Assembly: GCA_900318145.1 (NCBI GenBank) | Contig: ONJM01000001.1 | Location: forward strand, 1-64,000 | DNA: 64,000 bases | Direction: 5' to 3' | Source of the DNA: an uncultured Eubacteriales bacterium | Lineage (GTDB): Bacteria > Bacillota > Clostridia > Christensenellales > Aristaeellaceae | In this document: positions 177 through 42,056 of the stretch, piece after piece | How the letters are laid out: the number at the start of each line of letters is the position of its first letter | Numbering within the stretch: the stretch's first letter is position 1 | The notes under the pieces: generated by a model | Database searches by the model: none | What the model was told of the DNA's origin: nothing | The model's input: the letters and a program-made list of their open reading frames with translations, nothing else | Program-made: the position numbers and the translations under genes

Positions 177-187
177 GATTCCTGCGC

Positions 188-11426: not shown

Positions 11427-11451
11427 GCCGGGCAGGCGCGCCCGGCTTTTT
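11427..11451 (+). terminator. Rho-independent terminator
   Basis: A perfect seven-base-pair stem GCCGGGC/GCCCGGC with loop AGGCGC and a five-T tail, ending the murB-to-membrane-protein unit. Confidence 0.88.
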
Positions 11452-11454
11452 CAG

Positions 11455-11483
11455 TTGCTTTTTCGGGCAAAATAGGATACAAT
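11455..11483 (+). promoter_or_regulatory. Promoter of the YybS-rplI-dnaB unit
   Basis: TTGCTT (11455-11460), a 17-base spacer and TACAAT (11478-11483), directly after the terminator and about 70 bases before the first gene. Confidence 0.6.
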
Positions 11484-11550
11484 AAACTGATAATATATGC
11501 GATGCGGGCGCAAGCGAAACCGTGCGCCGGCGATGAATGGAGGTGACAGC

Positions 11551-13055: not shown

Positions 13056-13078
13056 CCGGCAGCCGCGGGGAGAATGCG

Positions 13079-14449
13079 ATGGAAATTCCGGAGAAACTGA
13101 GCGGCGCGGTTCCGCCCCACAGCGTGGAAGCGGAAACCAGTGTCCTGGGCGCGATGCTCCAGGACGGCACCGCCGTGCTCCGGGCTGCGGAACTGCTGAA
13201 GGCGGATGATTTTTACCTTCCGGAGCACCGGGAGATTTTCCAGGTGATGCAGGCGCTGAACCAGGAACACTACCCGATCGATACCGTGACCGTGCATACG
13301 GAACTGGCGAAGCGGGGAACCCTGGAGGGAATCGGCGGGGACGCGAATCTGCTGCGGATCCTGAATTCGGTGCCTACCACGGCCAATGTGAAGGCGTATA
13401 TCGATATCGTCCGGGAAAAGAGCACGCTCCGGAAGCTGATTTCCGCCTGCCAGAACATTTCGGGGGAATGCTACCGGCAGCAGACGCCGCTGCCTGAACT
13501 GCTCGCGTCCACGGAAAAGGCCATCTTCGACATCGTGATGAACCGGACGGACGGAGAGGCGCTTCAGCCTGTGGGCGAAGTGGCGGTGCGCGCGTTTGAC
13601 CAGATCGAGGAGCTGGCGAAACGGCACGGCAGCATTGCCGGCGTTCCGACCGGCTTTTTCGACCTGGACAGCCTGCTGACAGGACTGCACCCCGGCGAAT
13701 TTATTGTGGTCGGCGCACGGCCGGCAATGGGAAAAACGTCCTTTGCCATGAATGTGGCGGCGAACGCCAGCATCGGCCACGGGAAAAGGGTCGCCGTATT
13801 CACGCTGGAAATGCCCCGGGAGCAGATTGCCATGCGCGTCATGTGCTCCGACGCCCGGGTGGACATGCAGCGGGTGCGGAAAGGGACGCTGGCCAACGAC
13901 GACTGGATCCGGCTGGCGAACACCCTGGCGCCCATGGTAGCCGCGCCGATGTATATTGACGATACGGCGGGGATCAGCCCCAGCCAGCTGCGGTCCCGGT
14001 GCCGGCGCCTGATGATGGACACGGGCGGGCTGGACCTGATCGTGGTGGACTATCTGGGCCTGATGCGCGCGGACGGACGGGTGGAAAACCGGCAGCTGGA
14101 AGTCAGCGAAATCAGCCGGGCGCTGAAGGCGATCGCGCTGGAGCTGAAAGTGCCTGTAATGGCCTGCGCGCAGCTGAGCCGCGCCAACAGGGACCGGCAG
14201 GACAAGCGGCCGGTGCTGAGCGATCTGCGGGATTCGGGTTCCATCGAGCAGGACGCGGACGTGGTCATGTTCCTGCACCGGGAGGAATACTACAACAAGG
14301 ACACGGAAGACAAGAACATCGGTGAAGTGATCATCGCCAAACAGCGCAGCGGTCCGCTGGGAACGGTGAAACTGGCCTGGCTGGGCGAATTCACGACATT
14401 TGCCAACCTGGCGAGGGACACCGGAAACACCGGGGACGCGCCGTTCTGA
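13079..14449 (+). CDS. dnaB: Replicative DNA helicase
   Basis: A 456-residue hexameric 5'-3' helicase that unwinds DNA at the replication fork. The N-terminal primase-interacting domain begins PPHSVEAETSVLGAML; the RecA-like motor has Walker A GARPAMGKTS at about 211-220, FTLEMPREQIAMRVMC, Walker B DLIVVDYLGLM, and the arginine/sensor region KQRSGPLGTVKLAWLG near the end. Length and motifs are complete, with no intein. In Bacillus naming this is dnaC. It follows rplI closely and is probably cotranscribed. Confidence 0.97.
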   Translation: MEIPEKLSGAVPPHSVEAETSVLGAMLQDGTAVLRAAELLKADDFYLPEHREIFQVMQALNQEHYPIDTVTVHTELAKRGTLEGIGGDANLLRILNSVPTTANVKAYIDIVREKSTLRKLISACQNISGECYRQQTPLPELLASTEKAIFDIVMNRTDGEALQPVGEVAVRAFDQIEELAKRHGSIAGVPTGFFDLDSLLTGLHPGEFIVVGARPAMGKTSFAMNVAANASIGHGKRVAVFTLEMPREQIAMRVMCSDARVDMQRVRKGTLANDDWIRLANTLAPMVAAPMYIDDTAGISPSQLRSRCRRLMMDTGGLDLIVVDYLGLMRADGRVENRQLEVSEISRALKAIALELKVPVMACAQLSRANRDRQDKRPVLSDLRDSGSIEQDADVVMFLHREEYYNKDTEDKNIGEVIIAKQRSGPLGTVKLAWLGEFTTFANLARDTGNTGDAPF

Positions 14450-30251: not shown

Positions 30252-30325
30252 GGGATTATAGCTCAGTTGGTTAGAGCACCACGTTGACATCGTGGGGGTC
30301 ATAGGTTCGAGTCCTACTAATCCCA
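30252..30325 (+). tRNA. tRNA-Val (anticodon GAC)
   Basis: A 74-base cloverleaf: acceptor GGGATTA/TAATCCC, D-arm GCTC...GAGC, anticodon stem CCACG/CGTGG with loop TTGACAT (anticodon GAC, valine), T-loop TTCGAGT, discriminator A. The outer T-stem pair is A-C. No CCA is encoded (CAA follows), unlike the displaced 3' half at 42050, which is followed by CCA. This shows that the 3' half here was supplied by the integrated element, which preserves the gene on integration. Confidence 0.95.
30282..30325 (+). repeat. attL: 44-bp attachment core in tRNA-Val
   Basis: Identical to 42007-42050. The core runs from CGTTGAC in the anticodon loop to the discriminator base. The left boundary is set by A versus T just outside and the right boundary by C-A versus C-C. 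Confidence 0.93.
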
Positions 30326-30326
30326 C

Positions 30327-30365
30327 AACCCCGGAACGTTGATAATAAAGCGTTCCGGGGTTTTC
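30327..30365 (+). terminator. Rho-independent terminator after tRNA-Val
   Basis: CCCCGGAACG and CGTTCCGGGG form a perfect ten-base-pair stem with a 12-base loop, then TTTTC. It insulates the tRNA from the element. Confidence 0.9.
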
Positions 30366-30497
30366 TTATGTTCTGATATTCGACAAAAATAGATGGCATA
30401 TCGCACAAAAACCTAACAAAAATCTAACGTTTATAGGCTTTTTGTTGTTTGATGTATCGTTTTCTGCTTTTATTTACCTTTTGCTTTCTTTGCATAA

Positions 30498-30560
30498 CTA
30501 TACAAAATATAGTGGCTAAAATGAATAAACATTGTATTTATACACTTTATTTTGTATAAT
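30498..30560 (+). promoter_or_regulatory. Promoter and possible operator of the rightward module
   Basis: TTGTAT (30532-30537), 17-base spacer, TATAAT (30555-30560). TATTTTGTATAATAAT around the -10 box and an inverted copy, ATACAAAATA, at about 30500 could be a pair of operator half-sites. The same TTTTGTATAATAA occurs at the promoter of the element's XRE repressor (38771-38783). Confidence 0.5.
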
Positions 30561-30582
30561 AATACATGTTGGAGGTGAATTC

Positions 30583-30765
30583 ATGACGAACACCCATAAT
30601 GATGAAACACGCAATGCAAAGCGCGAGTATTACAGGGAATGGCGCAAGAACAATCCGGAACGCGTTGCAAAGATACAAGAGCGGTTCTGGACAAAGAAAG
30701 CCGCAGAAATACGCAACCAGGAACCGGTTGCCCCGGACCGCGGCGAGGAACCGCAGCCGGATTGA
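30583..30765 (+). CDS. Small basic phage-type protein
   Basis: A 60-residue highly charged protein (NAKREYYREWRKNNPERVAKIQERFWTKKAAE), probably one long helix, then a Pro/Glu tail. Short proteins with this REYYREWRKNNPE pattern recur in clostridial phages and islands, often at the start of a late or packaging region; none has a known role. GGAGGTGA lies six bases before the ATG. It is the first gene behind the promoter at 30532-30560. Confidence 0.65.
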   Translation: MTNTHNDETRNAKREYYREWRKNNPERVAKIQERFWTKKAAEIRNQEPVAPDRGEEPQPD

Positions 30766-30890
30766 TTGGTGATTCCGGCGCGTTCCCTTTCCATCATCCT
30801 GGCGCGCCGTTGTCATACCGGCCGCCGGCCGTTTCTCTTGCTCCAATCCAACGGATCCGGCGGCCAACTTCAAGAAAGGAATACCACAAC

Positions 30891-31238
30891 ATGGATACTA
30901 AAGATAGAAAGATCAAACCTGGTACGGATGTCGTTGCAGTAATAAGCGAACCCGGTGCGTTAGTATTCGCAACGCGTAAAGAATGGTGCAAACTTACGGA
31001 AAGCGCGCTGGATGAACTGAATCATTACGATATCAAAAAGGCTTTCATGGCTCCGGCTGGGATTTTCCTTCTTTTGCGTGATTACCAGCCATTGAATTTC
31101 CCGGATTCCTTCAGCAAGGATTATTTGCTTGTGAAGATCAACACGGACGAAGAAGGGAAACAGGCGGTTCATTGTATGCAACTGTCAACCGCAGAAGGGA
31201 ACCAGTTGATTCTGAATCGGATGGATCTGTGGGATTAA
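30891..31238 (+). CDS. Hypothetical element protein
   Basis: A 115-residue soluble protein of mixed alpha/beta character (DVVAVISEPGALVFATRKEWCKL, FPDSFSKDYLLVKINTDEEGKQ). No family is recognised and no signal or membrane segment is present. AAGAAAGGAA precedes the ATG at 30891. The 125 bases between it and the previous gene hold nothing recognisable beyond GC-rich inverted pieces. Confidence 0.55.
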   Translation: MDTKDRKIKPGTDVVAVISEPGALVFATRKEWCKLTESALDELNHYDIKKAFMAPAGIFLLLRDYQPLNFPDSFSKDYLLVKINTDEEGKQAVHCMQLSTAEGNQLILNRMDLWD

Positions 31239-31258
31239 TCCAGGAAGGGGGAACGCTG

Positions 31259-31411
31259 ATGGACATTATCAAAAAGAAAGAACATAAACGGCCAGCGCGG
31301 ACCGTGACGGCAGCGCAGAAACGGAAGATCAAAGAGTTTCAGAAGCGCATTGAAGAAGAGAATCGCGCCAGGCAGATGGGAATTCCGAAAGATGCGGAGA
31401 TTCGCTGTTAA
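31259..31411 (+). CDS. Small basic helical protein
   Basis: A 50-residue, Lys/Arg-rich protein (MDIIKKKEHKRPARTVTAAQKRKIKEFQKRIEEENRARQMGIPKDAEIRC), likely a single helix and possibly nucleic-acid-binding. AGGAAGGGGG lies upstream, 20 bases after the previous stop. It has no recognised family; size, charge and spacing suit a real small gene of the array. Confidence 0.5.
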   Translation: MDIIKKKEHKRPARTVTAAQKRKIKEFQKRIEEENRARQMGIPKDAEIRC

Positions 31412-31456
31412 TTGCCGGTAAACGTCCGGAGATGATAAAGAAAGGGGAACCACAAC

Positions 31457-32065
31457 ATGAAAACTGGGATTGAACGATTCCGACAGCAGAAAGCAGACAA
31501 TGAAAAGAAAGCTGCCGCTGCTGCGGAAAAACTGAACACGCTGAATGGAACCAGGGCAGAACTTGAAACCCGGATTGATTCTGCAATCAAAGACGGCGAC
31601 CAGGTGACCGCGGAGAAACTGATCCGTTCCCGGATGGACATTGACGTACAGATTGAAATCGCACAGAAAACCCTTGCCAACCTGGACAAGCCGCTTGACC
31701 GTGCTGCCGTTGCTGCCGCATGGGAAGATGATTTGTCCGATTATCAGAGGCAGATTGACAAGGGAGAAAAAGAACTGAATCAGTTGATTCGACAGGCAGT
31801 AGAAAAGGCCCTGGCTATTGCAGACGCGATAAATGCATCCTGGGATGCACGGACGGCGGCCCTTCTGCTGGTAAATGACCAGGAACCGCACACATACAAT
31901 TCCGGGAATAATGATTTTCCGGGAGTATCGTTCACGGGAAAAACCCTGGACGATGTTTCCGAATTACTTTCCCGGGAAGAGATGAACAAGATTCGCCCGG
32001 ATGCTTTGGGAACAATCGGCATGGCAATACGCAACAGAACCAATGTATTTTTTCGTCGTAAATAA
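31457..32065 (+). CDS. Coiled-coil protein of the element
   Basis: A 202-residue protein. Residues 1-125 are strongly helical with Glu/Lys/Ala/Gln heptads (NEKKAAAAAEKLNTLNGTRAELETRIDSA; LIRQAVEKALAIADAINASW) and resemble tail-assembly or scaffold-like coiled coils. The C-terminal 60 residues (PGVSFTGKTLDDVSELLSREEMNKIRPDALGTIGMAIRNRTN) are compact. AAAGGGGAA precedes the start. Scaffold, tail-chaperone or nucleoid functions are all possible; there is no direct evidence for any. Confidence 0.6.
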   Translation: MKTGIERFRQQKADNEKKAAAAAEKLNTLNGTRAELETRIDSAIKDGDQVTAEKLIRSRMDIDVQIEIAQKTLANLDKPLDRAAVAAAWEDDLSDYQRQIDKGEKELNQLIRQAVEKALAIADAINASWDARTAALLLVNDQEPHTYNSGNNDFPGVSFTGKTLDDVSELLSREEMNKIRPDALGTIGMAIRNRTNVFFRRK

Positions 32066-32080
32066 TTGGGGGATTGAAAC

Positions 32081-32221
32081 ATGAGCAAAAATAATCCGTC
32101 AAACGAACCAGAAGAGAATAACCAGGAAGAACAGGAAGAGGAAAAGCCGGTTGGCTTCTCATGGTGGAGTCCGCTTCCAAAGGAACAGTATCACGAGCAT
32201 CCGATTGGAAGCTCCAATTGA
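32081..32221 (+). CDS. Acidic 46-residue protein
   Basis: A short protein with a Glu/Asn/Gln-rich head (NEPEENNQEEQEEEKP) and an aromatic tail (GFSWWSPLPKEQYHEHP). TGGGGGATT lies upstream, 15 bases after the previous stop. Very acidic small proteins in phages often mimic DNA, but this one is too short to judge. Confidence 0.4.
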   Translation: MSKNNPSNEPEENNQEEQEEEKPVGFSWWSPLPKEQYHEHPIGSSN

Positions 32222-32385
32222 TCAATAAGGTGAACCGGTCACCTCTGCTGGGGAACCTTTTTGATAACCTTCCTTCGACCAGGCCCGGCCGCCGTCCGGA
32301 TTGCGCGCTCATGACACGCAAGGCAGACGGGCAAATCCACTCTCGCGCGGTTAGATCAAACATCGCGCAGCACCTCCTCTTGTAA
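32218..32385 (+). CDS. Possible 55-residue protein, TTG start
   Basis: A frame opening with TTG at 32218, overlapping the previous stop (TTGA), with GGAAG six bases before. It reads INKVNRSPLLGNLFDNLPSTRPGRRPDCALMTRKADGQI and onward to 32385. Coupling is plausible but unsupported; the stretch 32222-32441 otherwise shows nothing else. Confidence 0.25.
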   Translation: MINKVNRSPLLGNLFDNLPSTRPGRRPDCALMTRKADGQIHSRAVRSNIAQHLLL

Positions 32386-32441
32386 CGGCCGCGGTCGCTG
32401 GATAGCGGCTGCGGCTAATTCTTTATAGCAAAGGTGATATT

Positions 32442-32762
32442 ATGAATCTACTGTTTACAACTATCGAAGGCGTGGAAATAGGACGCGAAAAACGCATTTC
32501 AAAAGTGAAGAAAGCCATTGAGGACCGGAAGAAACTCAAGAAGGAACTTGAGGAACGTTTCCGGGAACTGTGCGCGCTTGCTAATGCTATCCGTCATTCC
32601 AACCCGGTAAAGGCGCGTGTTCTGGATCATCGCGGAATTACCCTGGCAAATGAAGCGTACCGGATGAAAAATGAGGACCGGCAGCCAATGACATATGATC
32701 AGATCCGGAGATCTGCGCTCCTGGGAAAATGTGCGCTGCTGGTGGATGGTGAAAAGAAATGA
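32442..32762 (+). CDS. Hypothetical helical protein
   Basis: A 106-residue basic protein, helical for most of its length (GREKRISKVKKAIEDRKKLKKELEERFRELCALANAI), with a C-terminal segment YDQIRRSALLGKCALLVDGEKK. AAAGGTGAT precedes the ATG. It overlaps the next gene by four bases (ATGA). No family recognised. Confidence 0.55.
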   Translation: MNLLFTTIEGVEIGREKRISKVKKAIEDRKKLKKELEERFRELCALANAIRHSNPVKARVLDHRGITLANEAYRMKNEDRQPMTYDQIRRSALLGKCALLVDGEKK

Positions 32763-32965
32763 AGATAGAAGTTGAATCATCGGAACTGATACGAATAGCC
32801 GCAGCAATAGAACACGATTGTTTTATGCTGGGTTATACGGATCCGGAAGATGCAGAGGATGATATAGATTTTTATATTCCTTCAATCAAATCCATGGCCG
32901 GTTGTCTGCGGCTGATGGTATGGAAAGGCGAAAAGCAGAAGCAGACAGGAGGCGCAAACCAATGA
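32759..32965 (+). CDS. Hypothetical acidic protein
   Basis: A 68-residue protein (VESSELIRIAAAIEHDCFMLGYTDPEDAEDDIDFYIPSIKSM) with an acidic centre and a basic tail. It starts within the previous stop codon and overlaps the next gene by four bases, which fixes it inside a translationally coupled run of three genes. No family recognised. Confidence 0.5.
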   Translation: MKIEVESSELIRIAAAIEHDCFMLGYTDPEDAEDDIDFYIPSIKSMAGCLRLMVWKGEKQKQTGGANQ

Positions 32966-33342
32966 CAAAAATACCAATTCAAACTATTGCAGATCCTGGC
33001 AAGGCCGCAGCGGTTGAACAGGAACGCGCCCGGCTGATGGAATTATTTGCAACAGCAAATCCGAACAAGCTGGATTTTATCCGTGACGCGGTGCAACAAC
33101 TCGCCTGGTTAAATATCAGCATCCAGGAATTGCAACGCGACATTGACGAAATCGGCCCGGTTGTTCCGTATCAGAACGGCCGGGAACAATCCGGATTGCA
33201 AGCGAATCCGTCATGCAAACTGCTGACAGATTTTCAAAAATTAAGTAATACCACGTTCCGCGCGCTGCTGCCGGTGCTTCCGGATAAACCGGCCAGGCAT
33301 GGCAAGCTGGCCGCATTGATGAATGAATTTGATGTGGAATAA
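32962..33342 (+). CDS. Phage terminase small subunit-like protein (P27 type)
   Basis: A 126-residue protein. LMELFATANPNKLDFIRDAVQQLAWLNISIQELQRDIDEIGPVV, then PYQNGREQSGLQANPSCKLLTDFQKLSNTTFRALLPVLPDK, follows the pattern of P27-family small terminases: paired helices, a GPVVxYxNG turn, and a helical NPxxK segment. Small terminases select DNA for packaging by the large subunit, which is missing here. In phage satellites a private TerS redirects a helper phage's packaging motor. ACAGGAGG precedes the start. The family call is from pattern only. Confidence 0.5.
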   Translation: MTKIPIQTIADPGKAAAVEQERARLMELFATANPNKLDFIRDAVQQLAWLNISIQELQRDIDEIGPVVPYQNGREQSGLQANPSCKLLTDFQKLSNTTFRALLPVLPDKPARHGKLAALMNEFDVE

Positions 33343-33499
33343 CCGCGCAGATCCGGCAACGGAACCGGAGAACAATTCCAATACCATCCCAACAGGACCA
33401 GGAACAGAAACACAACCAGCACCAGCCCGGTATAATCCGCGGCTGGTGGTTGGCGGCTTGGATTTCTTTGAAATGATAATGGAACAGAAAGAGCCGTAA
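33323..33499 (+). CDS. Possible 58-residue protein overlapping the TerS-like gene
   Basis: A frame from 33323 reads MNLMWNNRADPATEPENNSNTIPTGPGTETQPAPARY, then NPRLVVGGLDFFEMIMEQKEP, and stops at 33497-33499. It overlaps the end of the previous gene by 20 bases in another frame and lacks a strong ribosome site. Its low-complexity Pro/Thr/Asn head and ordered tail make it plausible but uncertain. Confidence 0.35.
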   Translation: MNLMWNNRADPATEPENNSNTIPTGPGTETQPAPARYNPRLVVGGLDFFEMIMEQKEP

Positions 33500-33524
33500 C
33501 CAATAACCAGGAGGACCGGCGGCA

Positions 33525-34295
33525 ATGCGCGAAACAAATATCCCGGATGAACAGATACCGACCGCGGATCCGGCGGCCGTTGTGGCGCGGTATGATGCGT
33601 TTATTAGGAAGATTTCAAGACGATATATTCCTATCCTGGACAAAACCGGCGCGATGGACCTGGACGATATGCAGCAGATTGGCCGTTGTGCTTTACTGAC
33701 CGCACAATCAAAATTTGATCCGGCTGAAGGTGTAAAATTTACTTCATTCGCGTTCAATTGGATCCGTTCAGCCATGCGGCGCGCCCTGGGGTTTTCGTCT
33801 ACCGGTGCGCCGCCGCCGATCCTGGAATCCCTGGATGCACCGATACCCGGCGAGGACGGCAGCGAAACCGCGCGGATTGATTTTGTTCCGGATCCGGATA
33901 TATTGCCGTTTGACGAATCGTTAATTGAAGATGAAAACCGCCAGGAAACGAAAAAAGAAGTACGCGCCGCCCTGGACCGCCTGAAAAGCGAACGGCAGCG
34001 CGAAATCATCCAGCGCATATACTTTGACGGCGCGGAACGGAAAGACATTGCCGCCGATATGGGAATCTCCAGGCAAAGAATCAGCGTACATGAACACGAT
34101 GCATACCGGAGTTTGCGCCATGATAAAAAGTTGCAAAAAGTTGTGGCGGATACTGTTCCTTTTGTTCGTGTGGGAGTTTCGCGGTTCAATACCACCTGGA
34201 CATCCGCGACCGAATTTGCGGTTTTGTGGCGGCTGGAACACTTGCCGCAGTACGCGCCGCAGAACGCGGAGGAAGGACCGAATCCGGGCCGCTGA
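33525..34295 (+). CDS. Sigma-70 family RNA polymerase sigma factor
   Basis: A 256-residue sigma factor. Region 2 is at about 17-90: AVVARYDAFIRKISRRY, DLDDMQQIGRCALLTAQSKFDPAEGVKFTSFAFNWIRSAMRRAL, including the -10-recognition helix. Region 4 is at about 145-195: LDRLKSERQREIIQRIYFDGAERKDIAADMGISRQRISVHEHDAYRSL, a complete HTH. A 60-residue C-terminal tail is not recognised. CAGGAGG precedes the start. A sigma factor inside an integrated element would let it transcribe its own or a helper's late genes. Confidence 0.85.
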   Translation: MRETNIPDEQIPTADPAAVVARYDAFIRKISRRYIPILDKTGAMDLDDMQQIGRCALLTAQSKFDPAEGVKFTSFAFNWIRSAMRRALGFSSTGAPPPILESLDAPIPGEDGSETARIDFVPDPDILPFDESLIEDENRQETKKEVRAALDRLKSERQREIIQRIYFDGAERKDIAADMGISRQRISVHEHDAYRSLRHDKKLQKVVADTVPFVRVGVSRFNTTWTSATEFAVLWRLEHLPQYAPQNAEEGPNPGR

Positions 34296-34364
34296 TGACT
34301 TACCCCATCATCCGCACCGGCAACGCGCCAGAAATGGCCGTAAATGCTGAAAGGGGAGGTTTGT

Positions 34365-34718
34365 ATGTTTACCGTTTCGGAATGGGATACTTTGACCGGA
34401 TACCGGGAAACGGTCCTGGCCGCGTGCAGCGTTTTGATAGATATATCCTGGCGGCTGCAGCATGGAATACCGCTGACGGATTTACCGGAACAGTATGACC
34501 GGCTGAAGATGGACATTGTTCGATTCAATGCCATCCTGGAAAAGATCCCTGACCGGCTTGCCAGGAACGTTCTCCGCTGCCGGTTCGCCCTGGGTTATAC
34601 CATCGGTGAAACGGCCGAATTCCTGGAAGTATCACGCGGTAACATTGACAATATCATTAAGAAACTGAAACCATCAGAAAGGAATGGTATACATGAGGAT
34701 AATCCGATTGAACATTGA
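34365..34718 (+). CDS. Sigma region 4-like HTH regulator (ArpU/RinA-like)
   Basis: A 117-residue protein. The N-terminal part is helical (TGYRETVLAACSVLIDISWRLQ); the C-terminal part is an HTH matching sigma region 4 (IPDRLARNVLRCRFALGYTIGETAEFLEVSRGNIDNIIKKLKP). Proteins of this size and layout (DUF1492, ArpU, RinA) activate late operons in Gram-positive phages. AGGGGAGG lies eight bases before the start at 34365; the ATG at 34344 lacks a site. It overlaps the next gene by 26 bases. Confidence 0.7.
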   Translation: MFTVSEWDTLTGYRETVLAACSVLIDISWRLQHGIPLTDLPEQYDRLKMDIVRFNAILEKIPDRLARNVLRCRFALGYTIGETAEFLEVSRGNIDNIIKKLKPSERNGIHEDNPIEH

Positions 34719-35025
34719 TGAACTGAATAAGCGCGTTGTGCCGATTGGCATTGAGGACGAGAACGGACACACACAAATCCAAATTGATTGTACACCGATG
34801 TTTGCCGAACACCCGGAAGCAATCGCGGATCTGATGGTGCAGCCGCCAATGGGAGATCTTTATACCGCAGAAACAAGCCGCAATCAGAACATTGTTACCT
34901 GGACAGTTTCGGAAATGGATCTGCAGTACCCTGGCAACGGGGAATTTCAGCTGCGTTTTACCGATGGAAATAGCATTGCATTAAGTCCAGTAGCGCGATT
35001 TAGAATAGCCAGGTCCATCGAATAA
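34693..35025 (+). CDS. BppU-like beta domain protein
   Basis: A 110-residue beta-rich protein: IRLNIDELNKRVVPIGIEDENGHTQIQIDC, WTVSEMDLQYPGNGEFQLRFTDGNSIALSPVARFRI. The PGxGEFQLRFxDG...SPVxRF arrangement recalls the N-terminal domain of phage baseplate upper proteins (BppU/DUF2479). Alone and this short, it may be a truncated tail gene or a domain kept for another use. GAAAGGA precedes the ATG at 34693. It is the last rightward gene of this module. Confidence 0.5.
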   Translation: MRIIRLNIDELNKRVVPIGIEDENGHTQIQIDCTPMFAEHPEAIADLMVQPPMGDLYTAETSRNQNIVTWTVSEMDLQYPGNGEFQLRFTDGNSIALSPVARFRIARSIE

Positions 35026-35343
35026 CCGCCAGGCTGCAGCACCGGTGCGCACGGTGGCCAGCTGGAGCGGTATATAGCCCCCCTATTACTTGTTTTTGGG
35101 TGGATGGGCGGCGGGTCTGGCCGTGGGATCGGAAAGACTCTCCCTGGCTTTTGCAAGGCCGGTGGTCTGCACCTGGTTTTCGCGCAGCTGGAGCCGGCAT
35201 ATTTACCGGGAATTACGCGGAAATAATCGGAATTATCATGCGTTTTTGTGGCAGGGAAAAGATACCGGTTTTTCCTGGAAATAAGCATTTTTTACCGGGA
35301 GAAATCTTCCTGGCTGGATTATGGAATAGAAAAACAAATACTG

Positions 35344-35379
35344 ATCTTTCTAATCTTTCTAATCTTTCTAATCTTTCTA
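35344..35379 (+). repeat. Four perfect copies of a 9-bp tandem repeat
   Basis: ATCTTTCTA occurs four times in direct succession and is followed by a partial ATCC. Such short iterons can be Rep-binding sites; the Rep protein is encoded about 150 bases away. Confidence 0.85.
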
Positions 35380-35472
35380 ATCCATCGTGGATCACAAAGC
35401 GCACAAAGAATAGAAAAAATAGTATTATTCCATAGTTGGATTCTGATCCATTTGATGATCCAGCAGCAATGG

Positions 35473-35502
35473 AAATAAAAAAGCCGGGGTATTTTCCCGG
35501 CC
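35473..35502 (-). terminator. Terminator of the leftward replication module
   Basis: Read leftward, GCCGGGAAAATACCCCGGC forms a stem with a loop of A/T and is followed by TTTTTTATT, 25 bases after the Rep stop. Confidence 0.82.
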
Positions 35503-35526
35503 TGGTTAGTGTGCCTGGTTAGCTGG

Positions 35527-37965
35527 TTAGATTTTTGTTTGTTGCGCATGTTTGCCGCTGGTTCCGATTGTGACCGGTGTAATTGTAACACCATAAACCT
35601 TCCGATTATAATCCGGTTCAAAGATCTTTCCGCGCCAATTATATGCTTTCGGTTTAATACTACCTTCGCGCTTGTCTACCTGGATTCCATCCTTTTCGAT
35701 CAATAGTGTACGCAGCTTGCTGATTCTCTGATAGATTCCAATGGTTTTATCCTTTGCCGGGATGTATGGGCATCGTCCGCAAACATCGGTAATCTTTGAT
35801 ATCAGATCATCGGTTCCAATAAACATTCCATCCGGATTGTATGATGCGATCTCGCGCGCGGTGATAACCAAGGGATCATCGTCATATTCAAATTGCAATG
35901 TTTCCTCTTCTTCTGCTTTCTCATCAGCTTTACGCGCAGCTTTTTTGAATAGCCGTTCATTGTATTCCGGAAGAATCTGCGTAAATTCTGCATGGCCGCG
36001 GAATCGTTCGTGCTTTTGTTTTTCGTGGTTATAACTTCCTGGATGATCTTTCACCTGGTACTGTATTGCGCGCTGGACATCCTGAAGCGCGGCCAGGTTG
36101 CTTTTTACCGTAAACAGGATTTTGTAATAATCATCCTCCGGATCTGTAACCACCTGGAGCATGGACCGCGTTGATGCACCGATATCGACAGAACCAATTC
36201 CGCGATGTATTGCCGCTTTTGTTGTGTCTTTGCCGGTGTGGACGGTGAACGCAATACAGATATTGTTCTCTGCTGCAACGTTCATTAATCGCGCCATCTG
36301 TGGCCGGGTTTCGCTTGCATTGTTCATGTCACCGGTTAGAAACTGCTGAATCGGATCCAATACAAGAAACTTTATATCCTTCTCTTTGATGATCTTATTA
36401 ATCATCTTTATTCCATCCGGAGAAAGATTCAGCCTTGCGATTTCTTCTCGCTCCTGGATCCGGAACAATTTGGATAAATCTCCACCGGCATCCAGGAAAG
36501 AAATCTTTATATCGCTTGCTTCATCCTCAATAGTGATAAACATAACGTTCCCCGGATCTTCACAGGGAACGCCCAGGAGATCTGCACCGGTGGACACCTT
36601 CGCACCTACTGCGTACAAACAAGTTGATTTACTGGTCCCGGAATCACCTTGAACCGCAACCAAATAACCGCGCGGAAACCAGGGAAAGAACAGAAAATCA
36701 ATTGGCTTGATTTCAATATCATCATACCCGGTTATGGTTAACTGATGCTTTTTCTTTTCTGCTGGTTTCGCTGCGGCCGGATTTGCCAGGTGGACATTTT
36801 CGCCGGTTTCCGTCTGCGCTTGTGCCGGTTTAGTGTAGACGATTTCACCGGTTGCCTTGTTGATTACTTCTGTAAAGGACCCGTCAAAATCGCGTTTCCA
36901 GGTGTACCGGTACGGATCCCCGGCACAATCAATACCCAGGGCGGCCAGCTGCGCTGCGTGTTCTTCGCGGTGTTCAACCTGGTATTTTTCGCGCTCTTTT
37001 CTTCGCCATTCAGCTGCTTCATGGTTTTCTTTGTATTCCCCGGTAAGTTTTTCCGGATCCGGTTTCCAACCGTTGGCTTTTGCCATATTTACAATGGTTC
37101 CAGCGCTTGCGGTTCTGTCTGCACCTTCCGCGCGGAATGATTGCCATTTCTTCGCAGCTGCCGTTTCGCCTGGATACTTGCTGCTGCTGCGCGACCATCT
37201 GTCCCATATATCAAAAGGTTGGTCAGCATTAACAAGCGCGTTTCCTACGGTTACCCAGGTTCCATAATCATCCGCGGAAATGAATTGAAGCATATCTTCT
37301 ACATTCAGCGAAAAAAAATCATCTGATACCGCAGTTGTTCGCCTGGTAGGCTCCGAATCACTGGCCGGTTTCGTTTCATTCTCTGATTCCGGTTCGGTTA
37401 TCTCCGGATGCTCCATAAAGAATTCTGCTATGTCTTTCTCACCCGGATGGTATTCCGCAACCGGTTCCGCATGACCAAAGAAGAACTGCGCTGGCTTCAT
37501 TCCGTCCCGGTCGAATTCCGGGAACACCACCAGGATCCTGGCCATTATCGCGCGGATGATATGAATATCCGGAATGGCAACCCGGAGAGGAAAGTAATAA
37601 TGCCACCTGGGCCGCGCGGATTTTTCGCCTGGCTCACCTGGATGTTTTACCTTGTCGCAATTCCTGGATTTTACCGCGTAGAACGCGATAACGGGTAGCC
37701 GTTCAGCTACTGTTGCTGGAGTAATCCAGGCTGCCGAATCTTCCGTATTATCATTATCACAATCAGCCTGGATGGCGTGGCAACGGATGAAATTATCAGA
37801 GCCGCGCCGATTATCCTTGAATTCTGTGCAAACATGATCCTTCCGGCAAGCTGCGGCGAGATCCTCCGCGCTGGAAACATCAAAAGGAATACTGTAAATG
37901 GTATTCTGCGCATTTCCGGTGCCGCTGGCCAGGAACATCCGGAACGATGCAAGGGTTTCGGCCAT
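35527..37965 (-). CDS. Primase-polymerase/helicase replication protein (Pri-Rep)
   Basis: An 812-residue multidomain replication protein. Residues about 1-185: archaeo-eukaryotic primase (AEP) domain with AIQADCDNDN (DxD metal ligands) and ARPRWHYYFPL (family His). About 215-295: PriCT-2 domain (ISADDYGTWVTVGNALVNA, IWDRWSRSSSKYPGETAAAKKWQSF). About 420-640: RecA-like helicase with Walker A GDSGTSKST near 445 and Walker B FLVLDPIQQFL near 535, then FTVHTGKDTTKAAIHRGIGS. The C-terminal 110 residues look like a winged-helix region. ATG at 37965 overlaps the previous stop (TGATG) and follows AAGGATGA. This is the type of protein that replicates satellites and small plasmids. Confidence 0.85.
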   Translation of the reverse strand: MAETLASFRMFLASGTGNAQNTIYSIPFDVSSAEDLAAACRKDHVCTEFKDNRRGSDNFIRCHAIQADCDNDNTEDSAAWITPATVAERLPVIAFYAVKSRNCDKVKHPGEPGEKSARPRWHYYFPLRVAIPDIHIIRAIMARILVVFPEFDRDGMKPAQFFFGHAEPVAEYHPGEKDIAEFFMEHPEITEPESENETKPASDSEPTRRTTAVSDDFFSLNVEDMLQFISADDYGTWVTVGNALVNADQPFDIWDRWSRSSSKYPGETAAAKKWQSFRAEGADRTASAGTIVNMAKANGWKPDPEKLTGEYKENHEAAEWRRKEREKYQVEHREEHAAQLAALGIDCAGDPYRYTWKRDFDGSFTEVINKATGEIVYTKPAQAQTETGENVHLANPAAAKPAEKKKHQLTITGYDDIEIKPIDFLFFPWFPRGYLVAVQGDSGTSKSTCLYAVGAKVSTGADLLGVPCEDPGNVMFITIEDEASDIKISFLDAGGDLSKLFRIQEREEIARLNLSPDGIKMINKIIKEKDIKFLVLDPIQQFLTGDMNNASETRPQMARLMNVAAENNICIAFTVHTGKDTTKAAIHRGIGSVDIGASTRSMLQVVTDPEDDYYKILFTVKSNLAALQDVQRAIQYQVKDHPGSYNHEKQKHERFRGHAEFTQILPEYNERLFKKAARKADEKAEEEETLQFEYDDDPLVITAREIASYNPDGMFIGTDDLISKITDVCGRCPYIPAKDKTIGIYQRISKLRTLLIEKDGIQVDKREGSIKPKAYNWRGKIFEPDYNRKVYGVTITPVTIGTSGKHAQQTKI

Positions 37966-38171
37966 CAGCATTCATCCTTCCCATAAGAATTATTCAACCA
38001 ATCTAAAAGCCGGTTATAGTTGATAAGAAACTTACTCCCGGCGCGAACGTGGACAATCTTACCGGCCAGGCAGCACTTCCGCAGAAAATCATAAGACAGA
38101 TACGGATGCCGCCGGTGTACTTCCGCAATGGGAATCATTTCCGGGATCATCGGATCAATCTGTCCTGTCAT
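37965..38171 (-). CDS. HTH excisionase/AlpA-like protein
   Basis: A 68-residue winged-helix protein of the MerR-like, excisionase class: MIPIAEVHRRHPYLSYDFLRKCCLAGKIVHVRAGSKFLINYNRLLDWL has the HTH, the RAGSKFLIN wing and the end helix of helix_turn_helix_17 proteins. Such proteins act as excisionases or as activators of integrase and rep genes (AlpA in PICIs). The ATG at 38171 is used as start; GTG at 38180 is an alternative. Its stop overlaps the rep start. Confidence 0.75.
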   Translation of the reverse strand: MTGQIDPMIPEMIPIAEVHRRHPYLSYDFLRKCCLAGKIVHVRAGSKFLINYNRLLDWLNNSYGKDEC

Positions 38172-38346
38172 GCTTTTCACCGGTCCTTTCTTCGATCAGC
38201 TGGATAATCTCGTTTTGTTCCTCTTCCGGCAATTCGTTCCGAAGCCGCCTGGATAAGGTTGCTTCGCTGGTTCCCAGGATCCCGGCCAACCACCACAATC
38301 GCTTGTTATGTTCCAATAACTTGATGCGGATTTTCATGTTGTTCAT
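38155..38346 (-). CDS. Cro-like small HTH protein
   Basis: A 63-residue protein (MKIRIKLLEHNKRLWWLAGILGTSEATLSRRLRNELPEEEQNEIIQLIEE), a compact XRE/Cro-type HTH with LAGILGTSEATLSRRLR as recognition part. GGAGG lies nine bases before the ATG at 38346. It overlaps the excisionase-like gene by 17 bases. A Cro or early-repressor role in the leftward operon is likely. Confidence 0.7.
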   Translation of the reverse strand: MNNMKIRIKLLEHNKRLWWLAGILGTSEATLSRRLRNELPEEEQNEIIQLIEERTGEKHDRTD

Positions 38347-38420
38347 ATCTCTTTACCTCCGGTATTCAATCGGATTCCCGGAGGCCCAGGAAGGAACCTC
38401 CGGGGAATTTATTGATAGTT

Positions 38421-38669
38421 TTAGGGATTGTCTGCTTGATTAATTCGATTTCCTATGATTCTGAACAACTCCCCGGAAACATAATTTGCCATATTAGCGA
38501 GGATATCGCGTGTTTCAAGAAAATCGTCCGCAGAAAATGAGTCGCGTTCATCTCCATACATATCACATAGGGAAGTGAGAGCATCCATACCAGCGGATAA
38601 GTTCTTCCGGATGGATATGAGCCTTTTAACATAAGGACATATTTTGATGCTGATATTTGAATCTTCCAT
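38421..38669 (-). CDS. First gene of the leftward module, unknown
   Basis: An 82-residue helical protein: MEDSNISIKICPYVKRLISIRKNLSAGMDALTSLC, FSADDFLETRDILANMANYVSGELFRIIGNRI. GGAGG stands eight bases before the ATG at 38669; the ATG at 38714 is not supported. It is divergent from the XRE repressor and therefore the first gene to be expressed on induction. No family recognised. Confidence 0.6.
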   Translation of the reverse strand: MEDSNISIKICPYVKRLISIRKNLSAGMDALTSLCDMYGDERDSFSADDFLETRDILANMANYVSGELFRIIGNRINQADNP

Positions 38670-38752
38670 TTTCTTTACCTCCATATTTTTTCGATTGGCC
38701 GTTCCGCTGCGCATCGGTTCGGCCTGGCGTGATGAAACATTTCATCTTTACG

Positions 38753-38781
38753 TTGACAGTATATCTTTTGTTTTGTATAAT
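38753..38781 (+). promoter_or_regulatory. Promoter of the repressor-integrase operon
   Basis: TTGACA (38753-38758), 17-base spacer, TATAAT (38776-38781), 41 bases before the GTG start. The -10 sits in TTTTGTATAATAA, also present at the promoter at 30555, a candidate binding site of the XRE protein. Confidence 0.78.
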
Positions 38782-38821
38782 AAAAATCCCAACGAGATAT
38801 GAAAAAACGGAGGTCGGAAAG

Positions 38822-39718
38822 GTGGAAAAAGATAACAAATATCCCAAAGAATTAGAGAAGCTCAAAGAAAATATAAGAAACATACGCAAAGAAAAAGGTT
38901 TCAGATCCGCGGAATCATTCGCGGAAGCCCTGGGAGTTAGTTTGAAAACTGTACAAGGATGGGAAAACCTGGACAATGGCCGTTGGCCGGATCTTGTCAT
39001 GATGCTTAAATTGTGTGACAAAACCGAAACCGATATTGATTATCTGCTCGGCCGCATCCAAGAACCTACGCATGATGTTAAATTCATTCGCGAGAAAACC
39101 GGTTTATCTGTTGAAGCAATTGAACGGTTGATCAGCTTGAAGGGAACCGGCATGGATGATCTTATATCCGATATTATTACTCATAAAAGCGCAGCACGGT
39201 TGCTCCGGGTGCTTCTACTTGCATCGGATGAAGATGAAATAGCCTGGCTTGATTTGGATAGCATCCCCAGGGAATTGCTTTCCTCCTATGCGGATCAGCC
39301 AATGGATTTTTCCGTTGGTATTGGTTCGGATGTTGCTGATTTCCTTGCAAGTCAAGAAATGGTTAACATAATCAGAAGCATCAGAGAAGCACGAGAAAAA
39401 GACAAACGCAGTAAAAGGGAGAACCGGGAACATCATTGGATGGAAGTGTACAAATCAAAGTATGATGTTTATGCGGCGAAAATGGACCGAAAAAAGATGC
39501 TTGCAAGGCTTGAAGATGATTGCATTGATTTGGATGCGGATCTGAAAGGGATGAATGATCCGGACACGATCAGCAGAGCAGAGAAACTGCTGGACGAACT
39601 GTCCGCATTAAGCACGAGAATCAAAACTGTATCTTTCACAGAGTGGAAATCCGGAAACATAGAAAAGGAATATACCGACATTTACGGTAAGGAGGAAGAC
39701 AACGATGGCCAATATTAA
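38822..39718 (+). CDS. XRE-family repressor of the element
   Basis: A 298-residue regulator with an N-terminal XRE HTH at about 10-75 (LEKLKENIRNIRKEKGFRSAESFAEALGVSLKTVQGWEN, then WPDLVMMLKLCDKTETDIDYLLGR) and a long C-terminal region ending in a helical segment. The start is GTG at 38822, with CGGAGG eight bases upstream. It has no LexA-type peptidase residues that I can see, so release from DNA may need an inducer protein, as with Stl of SaPIs. The last 14 bases overlap the integrase, so the two are coupled. Confidence 0.8.
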   Translation: MEKDNKYPKELEKLKENIRNIRKEKGFRSAESFAEALGVSLKTVQGWENLDNGRWPDLVMMLKLCDKTETDIDYLLGRIQEPTHDVKFIREKTGLSVEAIERLISLKGTGMDDLISDIITHKSAARLLRVLLLASDEDEIAWLDLDSIPRELLSSYADQPMDFSVGIGSDVADFLASQEMVNIIRSIREAREKDKRSKRENREHHWMEVYKSKYDVYAAKMDRKKMLARLEDDCIDLDADLKGMNDPDTISRAEKLLDELSALSTRIKTVSFTEWKSGNIEKEYTDIYGKEEDNDGQY

Positions 39719-41039
39719 ACCGATAACGCGCAAGGATGGAACGATTGCCTATCAGATCACAGTTTCCCTGGGCCGTGATAAGGCCACCGGTAAACAGATT
39801 CTGAAGTATGTGACATACATACCAAAAGAGAAAGCAACAACTAAAATTGAAAAGGAAGTAAACACCTTTGCTGCGGATTTTGAGCAGAAAGCAAAGAACG
39901 GAGAACTTGTTTCCGGTGATAAAGTGACGGTCAGCGAATTTGTGAAGATATGGGAAAAGAATTGGCTCCCAGCTAAAACACCGTCCGTCCGCGAGAACTA
40001 CATGGATATTCTCCGGAACCATGTTCTGCCGGTCATCGGTCATATGAAAATTACAACAGTAAAGGCAACACATATTGACGGAATTATCCAGGCGGCAAAG
40101 GATGCTGGAAAAGCTCCGTCAACGATCAGAGATCGGTTTACAGTAATCAATTCTGTTTTTAAGTATGCGTTTAAGAAACAATATATCCGGGAGAATCCTT
40201 GCCAGCGTTGCGATGAACGGCCGCCGGTGAAAATGAAGACGGGAAAAGAACTTCGATATTTTAATGAAGATCAATCGCGGCGGTTCCTCCGGGATGCTCT
40301 GACAATGGAATATGATCTTAAGTACGGTCAGCGCGGCCGGAAATCAAAAATAACCGGGAAGGAATACACCGTCAAGGAATATACGGTAAAACGTTCGGTT
40401 CCGTTGCAATGGCGCGTGTTCTTCACAATGGCAATTTACGGATCCTTCCGGCGCGGTGAAATGGTTGCTTTGACCTGGAATGATATAGATGAAAAAAAAC
40501 ATATCATTTCTATTGATAAGGCTGCAGCAATGACAAAGACGGAAAAGTATATCAAGGATCCGAAGACGGAAGCCGGGATCCGCGAAGTGTTTATGCCGGA
40601 TGAAGTATTTGCACTCTTGCGCGAATGGAAACGAGAACAGGCGGCACTTTGTATGAAGCTGGGAACGGCCTGGAAGGGTCACCGGAACGGGATGAAGGAA
40701 GACGGAAAAACCCCGGATTGCTTTGATGAAAACAATATCTTTATCCAGGTTGATACCGGCTTGCAGATGCATCTGTCTTCACCGAATCATAAATTCCATG
40801 AAATCTGTGATATGTATAACGCTACCAGGGAAAAGGAAGAAGACAAATTGCCGCGGATCCGGCTGCATGATCTCCGGCATACAGGCGCAACGCTGCTCCT
40901 GGGGAATAATGCGGACATCGAAACCGTATCGCACCGGCTGGGCCATAGTAAAGCCAGCGTAACGCTGGACATTTACGGCCATTGTCTGCCGGAGAACGAT
41001 AAACAGGCAGCTGATACACTCGCTGCCATGCTCAATTGA
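39705..41039 (+). CDS. int: Tyrosine-type integrase
   Basis: A 444-residue site-specific recombinase. An AP2-like arm-binding N-terminus (DGTIAYQITVSLGRDKATGKQ) leads to the core-binding SAM-like domain (TVSEFVKIWEKNWLPAKTPSVRENYMDIL). Catalytic residues: Arg in YGSFRRGEMVALTW (about 249), HDLRHTGATLL (His/Arg about 387-390), LGHSK (412) and Tyr in DIYGHCL (about 423). It lies 970 bases from attR and points to it. GGAGG precedes the start, which is inside the repressor gene. It presumably recombines the 44-bp tRNA-Val core. Confidence 0.94.
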   Translation: MANIKPITRKDGTIAYQITVSLGRDKATGKQILKYVTYIPKEKATTKIEKEVNTFAADFEQKAKNGELVSGDKVTVSEFVKIWEKNWLPAKTPSVRENYMDILRNHVLPVIGHMKITTVKATHIDGIIQAAKDAGKAPSTIRDRFTVINSVFKYAFKKQYIRENPCQRCDERPPVKMKTGKELRYFNEDQSRRFLRDALTMEYDLKYGQRGRKSKITGKEYTVKEYTVKRSVPLQWRVFFTMAIYGSFRRGEMVALTWNDIDEKKHIISIDKAAAMTKTEKYIKDPKTEAGIREVFMPDEVFALLREWKREQAALCMKLGTAWKGHRNGMKEDGKTPDCFDENNIFIQVDTGLQMHLSSPNHKFHEICDMYNATREKEEDKLPRIRLHDLRHTGATLLLGNNADIETVSHRLGHSKASVTLDIYGHCLPENDKQAADTLAAMLN

Positions 41040-41059
41040 TGGAGAGAGGAGGAACGAAA

Positions 41060-41110
41060 ATGGAACGGAATAAAAAACCGCCGCCGGACGGATCCAGCGG
41101 CAGCCGGTGA
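41060..41110 (+). CDS. Possible 16-residue leader peptide
   Basis: ATG at 41060 with AGAGGAGGAAC before it and a stop at 41108. The codons MERNKKPPPDGSSGSR include a Pro-Pro-Pro run. A strong ribosome site for so short a frame is unusual; a hairpin (GCCGC...GCGGC) lies within it. It may be a regulatory leader of the next gene or chance. Confidence 0.25.
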   Translation: MERNKKPPPDGSSGSR

Positions 41111-41219
41111 ACCTAACTCGCGACAGAAAGGAACACCAACCGGATTATATCCCGGAATGGTGCTTCCGATCAAGTAACCGTCAACTAAAACGGAAGAATA
41201 AAGAAAGGAAGTATCAATT

Positions 41220-41765
41220 ATGAAAACCGACAAAAACATGAACACAGCGAGAAAACTTTCCCTGGAAGAAATCGAAGCAATGCCGCGAGGATCTGTAGTG
41301 TGGAGATCTTTTTACACCAAAACAGATGAAGGAATTATATGGCATACTGCCGATCCGATGTTGGTTTGTTTGCCTGGTCACGGAGGATATTTGCTGGGTG
41401 CAGATAAAGATAGTTACTGGGAAGGTGACATTGATAATTCGCTGATGTCGGCTCCGGATATCTCTTATTGGAATTCCGAACCGGCAGATGATCAGCTGCG
41501 TGGAATAACAAAAGAACAGTACAACGCTATGACCAATGAGGAATTAATCGTCAATACGAAGCTGGCTGCTGCCATTACAACAAGAGGAGTATTGTTTAAA
41601 GAATTGTGTTCAATGACCGGAATGAATTTCAATCATTTTTGGAAAGCATTGACCGGAGAATGTGAATTTGTGCGATCAGAAATTGTAACCATCAGAACTG
41701 TGCTGGATCTGACGGACGATGAAGTGTTGGATATCTTCTTTCCGGAAGTAACGCTGCAGATCTGA
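41220..41765 (+). CDS. Element cargo protein next to attR
   Basis: A 181-residue protein. Residues 1-95 form a beta-rich unit (GSVVWRSFYTKTDEGIIWHTADPMLVCLPGHGGYLLGADKDSYWEGDI); residues 105-181 are helical and XRE-like (TNEELIVNTKLAAAITTRGVLFKELCSMTGMNFNHFWKALTGECEFVRSEIVTIRTVLDLTDDEVLDIFF). Position between integrase and attR is where satellites and prophages keep accessory genes such as phage-resistance factors. Function unknown. AAAGGAAG precedes the ATG. Confidence 0.65.
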   Translation: MKTDKNMNTARKLSLEEIEAMPRGSVVWRSFYTKTDEGIIWHTADPMLVCLPGHGGYLLGADKDSYWEGDIDNSLMSAPDISYWNSEPADDQLRGITKEQYNAMTNEELIVNTKLAAAITTRGVLFKELCSMTGMNFNHFWKALTGECEFVRSEIVTIRTVLDLTDDEVLDIFFPEVTLQI

Positions 41766-41792
41766 ATTGTGTACAGACTTCCATTTTTAAAG

Positions 41793-41817
41793 ACGGGGGA
41801 GAAATCCTCCGTTTTTT
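41793..41817 (+). terminator. Rho-independent terminator
   Basis: ACGGGGGA pairs with TCCTCCGT (one G-T pair) across GAAA, then TTTTTT. It ends the integrase-side operon. Confidence 0.75.
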
Positions 41818-42006
41818 GTTAGAAAATCAAAGGTGGTCACCGGTTCGTTTTTTGCCGATTTACACCTAATAAAACCTAACAGGAACCTAACGTTTATATA
41901 AAAAGCACCAAAAATGAGAAAAAGATAGAAAAAGAAAAACGGCTGGAGCCGTTGAATTATAAAGAGTTGCTAAAAGGTGGGGAAAGCCGGAAAAAAGGCA
42001 GAGAGT

Positions 42007-42050
42007 CGTTGACATCGTGGGGGTCATAGGTTCGAGTCCTACTAATCCCA
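42007..42050 (+). repeat. attR: 44-bp attachment core (displaced tRNA-Val 3' half)
   Basis: Identical to 30282-30325 and followed by CCA, so this is the original chromosomal 3' end. The base before the core (T) differs from the tRNA (A), marking the junction with the element. Confidence 0.93.
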
Positions 42051-42056
42051 CCAGCG

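Follow-up and report, generated by a model that had tools for sequence, protein, structure and literature searches.

Phage satellites of Gram-positive bacteria have mostly been studied well in cocci, and the timing of late genes in satellites and their helpers is mostly known from P4 and from the Staphylococcus aureus pathogenicity islands (SaPIs). P4 has its own activator of late transcription, Delta, which is of the Ogr type and not a sigma factor. We have analysed a stretch of 64,000 nucleotides from an uncultured Eubacteriales bacterium of the Aristaeellaceae (contig ONJM01000001.1, positions 1 to 64,000; hereafter the window), in which an element at a tRNA-Val gene is, judged by its sequence, probably a complete, helper-dependent satellite similar to the phage-inducible chromosomal islands (PICIs). 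It carries a gene for a protein resembling the small terminase subunit (TerS) near one for a sigma factor of its own. We compared its 19 main proteins with PHROGs and Pfam at E 0.1, and homologues of its genes were counted in 14 other stretches (15 with the window, holding 217 called open reading frames, ORFs). Loci, genomes and contigs are denoted by L, G and C, and the genes without a name by o. The main features are:

30252..30326, +, intact tRNA-Val(gac), the integration target (ARAGORN)
30282..30326, +, attL core, 45 bp (exact direct repeat)
30550..30562, +, 13-nt TTTTGTATAATAA ahead of o1, with a second copy at 38771-38783 in the repressor promoter; putative shared promoter/operator
32962..33342, +, terS, small terminase subunit-like (phrog_5110, phrog_1066, homologues before the large terminase subunit gene, fold)
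33525..34295, +, sigma factor with regions 2 and 4 (Pfam; phrog_351 1.7e-30)
34365..34718, +, sigma region-4-only protein (Sigma70_r4 8e-5, 22.5 bits, below the 24.1 cut-off; alignment)
35341..35385, +, iteron-like array of 9-bp units 3' of pri-rep, a candidate replication origin
35527..37971, -, Pri-Rep, a primase fused to a replication ATPase (PriCT_2 1.6e-14, AAA_25 5.5e-21)
37965..38171, -, excisionase/AlpA-like helix-turn-helix (HTH) protein (through its homologue in L055)
38155..38346, -, Cro-like regulator (position; phrog_17740, of unknown function, 2.2e-4; homologues in 7 other stretches)
38753..38781, +, promoter of the operon of repressor and integrase, a perfect TTGACA-17-TATAAT (promoter scan)
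38822..39718, +, XRE-type (Stl-like) repressor (HTH_3 8.5e-7, phrog_8 1.6e-11)
39705..41039, +, tyrosine integrase (phrog_1 4e-62, Phage_integrase 1.8e-15)
41220..41765, +, o19, kept in L049, L051, L052, L054 and L056 (alignment)
42007..42051, +, attR core, 45 bp (exact direct repeat)

For comparison we used the definition of Gram-positive PICIs in the available text of PMC6092414. Like PICIs and SaPIs the element is bounded by att sites, measures 11,725 bp against about 10-15 kb, has no virion genes that we could find and, as some PICIs do, carries its own TerS. Repressor and integrase lie on one strand, the excisionase-like gene and the fused pri-rep on the other, and an iteron-type array with a putative role in replication stands directly 3' of pri-rep. 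PICIs have genes unique to their class, and here o19 gave no match among 357 ORFs called in 19 prophage-type stretches (two of them overlapping), while the sigma factor and the region-4 protein gave one weak match each (7.4e-5 and 7.8e-4). Structural and lytic genes, absent from PICIs, were not found in the window; among its relatives a lone head protease occurs in L051, L055 and L152, and a tape measure in L049 and L053. The terS operon of the window (+) is however convergent with pri-rep (-), whereas in PICIs terS and the interference genes come after pri-rep in its own direction. The element also has a region-4 protein and a full sigma factor, and its att core recurs on a tailed-phage contig. 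Because the terS module is not co-directional and an exclusive att site is in doubt, we call the element PICI-like and not a PICI. It differs from the capsid-forming PICIs in having no capsid, portal or large terminase subunit (TerL) of its own.

Other known systems are more distant. The Streptococcus satellites Javan571 (MK448546) and Javan593 (MK448556), records of 10.8 and 13.3 kb, have an integrase 26% identical over 98%, and Javan571 is annotated with an integrase, an HTH gene and a primase, but no Streptococcus record is among the seven phage-collection records that match the window's sigma factor. The Fusobacterium phage phiRTG5 (OR492272) has a homologous sigma factor (31% over 59%, E 1e-13) between transposition genes and TerL, according to its annotation, but is a 37-kb phage with head genes and not a satellite. 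The likeness to P4 would be a satellite-borne activator of late transcription, if the sigma factor acts on helper genes; no P4-type morphogenesis gene is named among the matches of the window's proteins. A search of the literature by titles and the beginnings of abstracts, with most subscription journals outside its coverage, found no satellite-borne sigma factor, which is weak evidence of novelty; in the satellite papers whose text was checked, the word "sigma" occurs only as the name of a supplier.

Boundaries, gene plan and relatives

The element lies between two exact copies of a 45-bp direct repeat, the left one being the 3' part of the tRNA-Val gene. The original prediction had described a perfect repeat of 44 bp around 11.7 kb, and both its perfection and the span, 11,725 bp from start to start, were right, while the length is 45 bp. 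In the source genome (3.24 Mb, 63 contigs, 88% complete) the core is present in these two copies only, even with up to three mismatches allowed, and the reversed control gave none. The GC content in 1-kb steps is 0.43-0.53 inside the element and mostly 0.53-0.64 in the flanks, where some steps are also GC-poor (0.45-0.48, at 26-27, 29-30, 42-43 and 45-46 kb).

The repressor and integrase genes run rightward and overlap by 14 bp, in line with the predicted coupling of an integrase to an XRE repressor, and both have PHROG and Pfam matches. The genes for the Cro-like, excisionase-like and Pri-Rep proteins run leftward, and at the tRNA end the rightward operon from o1 to o12 meets pri-rep tail to tail. 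Of the divergent Cro-like, AlpA-like and Pri-Rep module that had been proposed, the layout and the Pri-Rep domains stood. The AlpA-like identity comes through the L055 homologue (E 6.4e-22), which matches HTH_17 at E 2.2e-5 with 25.0 bits, below the cut-off of 27 bits, the window protein itself having no Pfam match at E 0.1, and the label "Cro-like" is based on position and weak matches. A single-protein query with Pri-Rep found no relatives in genome contigs or viral contigs. The iteron-like array has one 8-mer four times in 250 bp, a measure equalled by none of 438 other overlapping segments of the element.

Relatives were sought in 100 genomes, and their neighbourhoods were then read. A like plan is found in L051 (G023), L052 (G044), L054 (G034) and L049 (G041), as well as in G013, where a late part (L053) and an early part (L050) stand at two contig ends and, we infer, belong to one element; L055 (G018) and L056 (G011) have an integrase of the window's type and share its att core. 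Exact end repeats measure 60 bp in L051, 42 in L054, 56 in L049, 16 in L052, 62 in L056 and 45 in L055, the last identical to that of the window, and none was found for the G013 element. Where both ends are present the repeats are spaced 8,840-13,160 bp, and the neighbouring tRNA genes are for Trp (L051, L054), Leu (L052, L049, L050) and Val (L055, L056). Eight elements were thus counted in the genus, with the window included and L053 and L050 taken as one. A full sigma factor is present in six of them (window, L051-L055), the region-4 protein in six (window, L051-L054, L049), o19 likewise in six, and a TerS of the window's type in five (window, L051-L053, L056).

Some relatives add a single gene of phage type. 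The lone prohead protease of L051 (Peptidase_S78 7.3e-45) lies between the places of o2 and o4, and that of L055 (6.1e-29) downstream of sigma. Complete tape measures homologous to those of phages are present in L049 (13185-16700; phrog_1272 8.9e-71) and L053 (4401-6452; phrog_1533 1.8e-19), the latter preceded by a tail gene homologous to the gene before the tape measure in the prophages L124 and L126. A PLD-like nuclease stands ahead of TerS in L051, L052, L053 and L056 (in L051 phrog_16945 1.4e-13, with the motif seen by eye), and an alignment scan of the viral contigs with it gave one match. A role of satellite tape measures in shortening the tails of helpers was considered and dropped, as L053 fits (683 vs 747 and 730 amino acids) but L049 does not (1171 vs 1155). 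They could possibly customise the particle or interfere with tail assembly, the latter being known for other PICI genes according to the available text of PMC11364771.

The probable terminase subunit and the sigma factor

The TerS of the window matches phrog_5110 (terminase small subunit) at 1.7e-5 and phrog_1066 (unknown function) at 5.9e-12. A profile built from five satellite versions gave two matches below E 10 among the 357 prophage-type ORFs, L057 at 1.6e-23 and L127 at 4.4e-6, and each is encoded immediately upstream of a TerL gene with the ATPase and nuclease domains by Pfam. The AlphaFold model (confidence score, pLDDT, 79.8) was searched against BFVD, where 26 of the 50 matches listed are named terminase small subunit, the best named one at E 1.6e-4 and the top three unnamed; six matches reached E 0.001 or better, two of them named TerS, and several have a large root-mean-square deviation. 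The alignment profile found nothing convincing among solved structures (best E 0.32). Some of the fold matches carry the name P27, a label (Terminase_4) that we dropped for the window protein since it has no Pfam match and since the real Terminase_4 of the resident phage is not one of the two matches of the profile. Taken together, the weak profile matches, the viral folds and the homologues next to TerL make it likely that the protein is a TerS.

The sigma factor exceeds the Pfam cut-offs for both of its regions (Sigma70_r2 34.1 bits, cut-off 24; Sigma70_r4 41.9 bits, cut-off 24.1), and the region-4 protein falls slightly below. The original prediction was of a TerS-like gene and two transcription factors in a late-type array, one of them a private sigma factor; the TerS identity has gained in strength, and the sigma factor is real and recurs in related elements. 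A single-protein query with it found no relatives in viral contigs, while an alignment-based scan of these gave five partial matches of 26-34% identity. A prophage protein encoded before an HNH-TerS pair (L125) was tried as a relative of the region-4 protein and rejected as too weak (hhalign probability 10.7).

The pairing of the two genes reaches outside the genus. Among 291 genomes drawn class-wide, 7 have a match to sigma at E 1e-20 or better, the source genome included, and three of the six loci outside the genus carry a TerS (L147, L150, L152), in two cases of other TerS families. L147, near a tRNA-Arg gene and cut by the contig end, has integrase, Cro-like, excisionase-like, region-4 and sigma genes with an adjacent TerS (phrog_24579 7.5e-25). 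L150, bounded by a 17-bp repeat at tRNA-Arg, is 10.1 kb long and encodes an o1-like protein, sigma and a TerS of the Terminase_2 family (4.9e-21). L152, near tRNA-Ala, has a primase gene, sigma, a TerS of the window's type (phrog_1066 9e-34) and a lone ClpP-type head protease (phrog_94 4.4e-85), and its far end was not found. In L151 there are integrase, repressor, sigma and transposase-like genes and no TerS was seen, and L148 and L149 each form an island flanked by conserved genes, in which there is a sigma and no integrase could be seen. Seven elements carry both genes, and in all of these no more than three genes separate sigma from TerS on the same strand; the product of the per-element chances is 3.4e-5, which overstates independence because four of the seven represent one lineage.

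A further likeness is the "Bacteriophage sp." scaffold MT836843.1 (L154) from human feces in Mexico, of 8,514 bp with a 124-bp terminal repeat, and therefore probably a circle of 8,390 bp. It has integrase, XRE, o1-like, excisionase-like and sigma genes, but no match to the window's TerS or Pri-Rep, and carries an AbiD defence gene (1.4e-63). The scaffold presumably comes from the study of virus-like particles from Mexican children whose available text describes filtration, chloroform, DNase and assembly by IDBA-UD with k 20-125 (PMC8361208); "MT83" does not occur in its main text. A 7.6-kb element was also observed in the tmRNA gene of L066 (9828-17495; 23-bp repeat), with integrase, sigma, region-4 and rolling-circle Rep-type proteins.

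As to the control of the late operon, a TATAAT-type site was spotted by eye ahead of o1. The TTTTGTATAATAA there has two matches in the window against 0.04 expected, with no third even when one mismatch is allowed. Because such a site stands there and shares TTTTGTATAATAA with the repressor promoter, the sigma factor is probably a product of the late operon and not its starter. A search for shared motifs in five sigma-bearing satellites gave 8 four-plus-four patterns present in all five (0-4 in 8 shuffles) and 181 in at least four (34-62 in shuffles). In none of the 8 are there more than two G or C, and the shuffles preserved nothing but base content; for this reason we claim no sigma promoter.

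The remaining genes of the element and its candidate integrase sites are:

30408..30435, +, candidate arm site of the integrase (repeat of 28 nt shared with 41871-41898, 89%)
30583..30765, +, o1, small protein encoded first in the late operon (phrog_14214 2e-9; homologues in 6 of the 14 other stretches)
30891..31238, +, o2, homologues in L049, L051, L053 and L054
31259..31411, +, o3, 50 amino acids, only in the window among the compared stretches
31457..32065, +, o4, helical protein (model pLDDT 69.6, predicted template modelling score, pTM, 0.39)
32081..32221, +, o5, as o3 only in the window
32442..32762, +, o6, as o3 only in the window
32759..32965, +, o7, homologues in L052 and L053
33332..33499, +, o9, small protein encoded between terS and sigma, with homologues in L051-L053
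34693..35025, +, o12, last gene of the late operon, as o3 only in the window
38421..38669, -, o16, as o3 only in the window
41871..41898, +, candidate integrase arm site, partner of 30408-30435

No homologue of o4 was found in the other stretches, and the helical proteins at a like place in relatives are only 13-18% identical, without significant similarity. A defence-family scan of seven window proteins gave one marginal match, of o6 to JetC (0.0044). Outside the element, 26732-29245 encodes an 837-amino-acid protein with near-identical repeats followed by a part that by eye is leucine-rich-repeat-like, and a 42-bp tandem DNA repeat lies at 29006-29097.

Missing virion genes and possible helpers

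No TerL, portal, capsid, tail, lysis, relaxase or mobilisation family was found among the 19 proteins at E 0.1, which agrees with the predicted lack of virion, large terminase, lysis and conjugation genes. Capsid, portal and TerL genes at the same places in homologous elements, or a relaxase, had been named as signs of a decayed prophage or an integrative and mobilisable element (IME). We found neither, the relaxase being sought among the 19 proteins of the window and the virion genes also in relatives: 21 structural queries (TerL 8, portal 7, capsid 5, sheath-type 1) from 13 prophage loci, some labelled by eye and nine confirmed by Pfam, had no match in the 217 ORFs of the 15 stretches. Protease and tape measure queries, by contrast, match L051, L152, L049 and L053. 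A scan of 74 satellite proteins showed no TerL, portal or capsid among the matches listed (25 of 97 families), and because of this coverage the absence from relatives rests mainly on the search of the 217 ORFs. None of 16 portal matches in 61 genomes, a draw outside which G041 and G044 fall, lies inside a satellite.

The source genome (G000) has two candidate helpers. Contig C5 (L119) carries genes for Terminase_4, TerL, HNH, portal and a Clp-type protease. C37 (L085, about 40-13616) carries TerL, a major capsid protein (PF09950 1.1e-62) and a DUF3383 protein, labelled sheath by eye, with a region-4 protein (Sigma70_r4 4.1e-4, below the cut-off) two genes before TerL that is weakly related to that of the satellite (7.8e-4); this cluster may represent a particle derived from a phage, or a prophage that was kept. 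Of 28 genomes of the genus, 18 match the TerL profile phrog_2 at better than 1e-28, not all of them confirmed to have the same cluster.

The att core is found in 34 of 45 genus genomes, most of the 45 being assembled in many contigs. It is paired on one contig only in G000, G011 and G018, always at satellite spacing, and no prophage-sized pair on one contig was found in the 45 genomes. G017 and G040 have a second copy with one mismatch on another contig. That of G040 is the tailed-phage contig C2, with tail-type genes, a holin (Phage_r1t_holin 1.6e-14) and a tape measure 46% identical to that of the satellite L049, while the single-core tRNA-Val site of G040 is on C13. Satellites and phages of the helper type thus seem to share a single pool of genes. 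A portal-type prophage gene occurs in G000 and G018, both with a tRNA-Val satellite, which in a post hoc test is an overlap of two out of three at P 0.013 in 37 genus genomes; the third genome with the satellite, G011 (63% complete), is without the gene, and G008 has the phage without a tRNA-Val pair.

Proposed function, alternatives and meaning

The reading as a PICI-like satellite, which was also the original one, is supported by small and mostly repeat-bounded relatives, by homologues in which no TerL, portal or capsid was matched, by the strengthened TerS and by the recurrent sigma factor. There are several observations that weigh against it. The sigma factor is not universal (six of the eight elements), a TerS of the window's family is missing from L049, L054 and L055, and homologues of Pri-Rep beyond the window are found only in L049, L050 and L051, the other elements carrying other primases. 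Iterons are conspicuous in three of five elements tested and not in L052 and L049, and six window genes have no homologue in the compared stretches. The TerS has no Pfam match at E 0.1, modest PHROG matches and no match of its model to PDB folds at E 0.001 or better. The resident phage on C5, a 6.9-kb fragment, has a TerS of another family, Terminase_4. The promoter scan lists no site on the + strand before o1, because its -35 is poor, and shows no excess overall (19 sites vs 17.9 in shuffles), and a sigma promoter motif was not found in the five satellites. Finally, the one-mismatch core on G040:C2 (L129, around 10252) lies between the holin gene and an integrase.

We propose that a helper phage would lift the repressor and that the element would then excise and replicate from the iterons, after which the satellite TerS would partner the TerL of the helper and direct satellite DNA into helper particles. 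The late operon would start with the housekeeping polymerase under the same switch as the repressor, and the encoded sigma factor would act later. The least certain step, which we put forward tentatively, is that the sigma and region-4 proteins might bring the RNA polymerase of the host to late promoters, either the satellite's or the helper's, similar to P4 Delta in role and not in family. The place of the homologous sigma factor in phiRTG5, between early genes and TerL, fits late control.

It may well be, although we lean slightly against it, that the two proteins serve only the late operon of the satellite and never the helper. They are both encoded in the TerS operon and the sigma-TerS neighbourhood recurs, but a TATAAT-type site, seen by eye and not listed by the promoter scan, already precedes that operon together with the shared TTTTGTATAATAA, and the satellites yielded no promoter motif in common. 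Rather unlikely is interference, in which the sigma factor would draw RNA polymerase off the genes of helper or host instead of activating any. PICIs commonly have interference genes beside terS (available text of PMC6092414), but the presence and conservation of both regions 2 and 4 suggest promoter use over mere blocking.

The nature of the element itself can also be questioned. In a decayed prophage, with the virion genes lost and integration, replication and a fragment of late control kept, sigma and TerS would be remnants, and the TerS, PLD-like nuclease, proteases and tape measures are indeed of phage type. Such a decay is nevertheless improbable, since several genomes have a similar compact plan whose frames are open, at different tRNA genes and at 8.8-13.2 kb, and since o19 and sigma have next to no counterpart in the prophage-type ORFs. 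Very improbable is an IME that spreads by conjugation or by natural uptake, its phage-like genes being incidental, which would agree with a small integrative element with a primase and with the Rep-type protein of the sigma-bearing L066, but no relaxase or mobilisation family is present among the window's 19 proteins and we know of no use of TerS in conjugation.

If the element is a PICI-like satellite, one could go further and imagine a broad class of satellites in Clostridia with a sigma-TerS module for late control, a doubtful idea. In such a class the private sigma factor, often with a region-4 partner, would activate helper late genes in trans, the TerS would be exchangeable, and some elements would add one morphogenesis gene of helper type, for a head protease or for a tape measure, by which the particle is customised or blocked. 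If the sigma factor does activate the late genes of the helper, such a class would offer a counterpart, of the sigma type, to P4 Delta. A sigma factor beside TerS, with three TerS families, would give a simple and testable control device, and would let many of the small islands between att sites that lack annotation in gut and rumen Clostridia be read as satellites.

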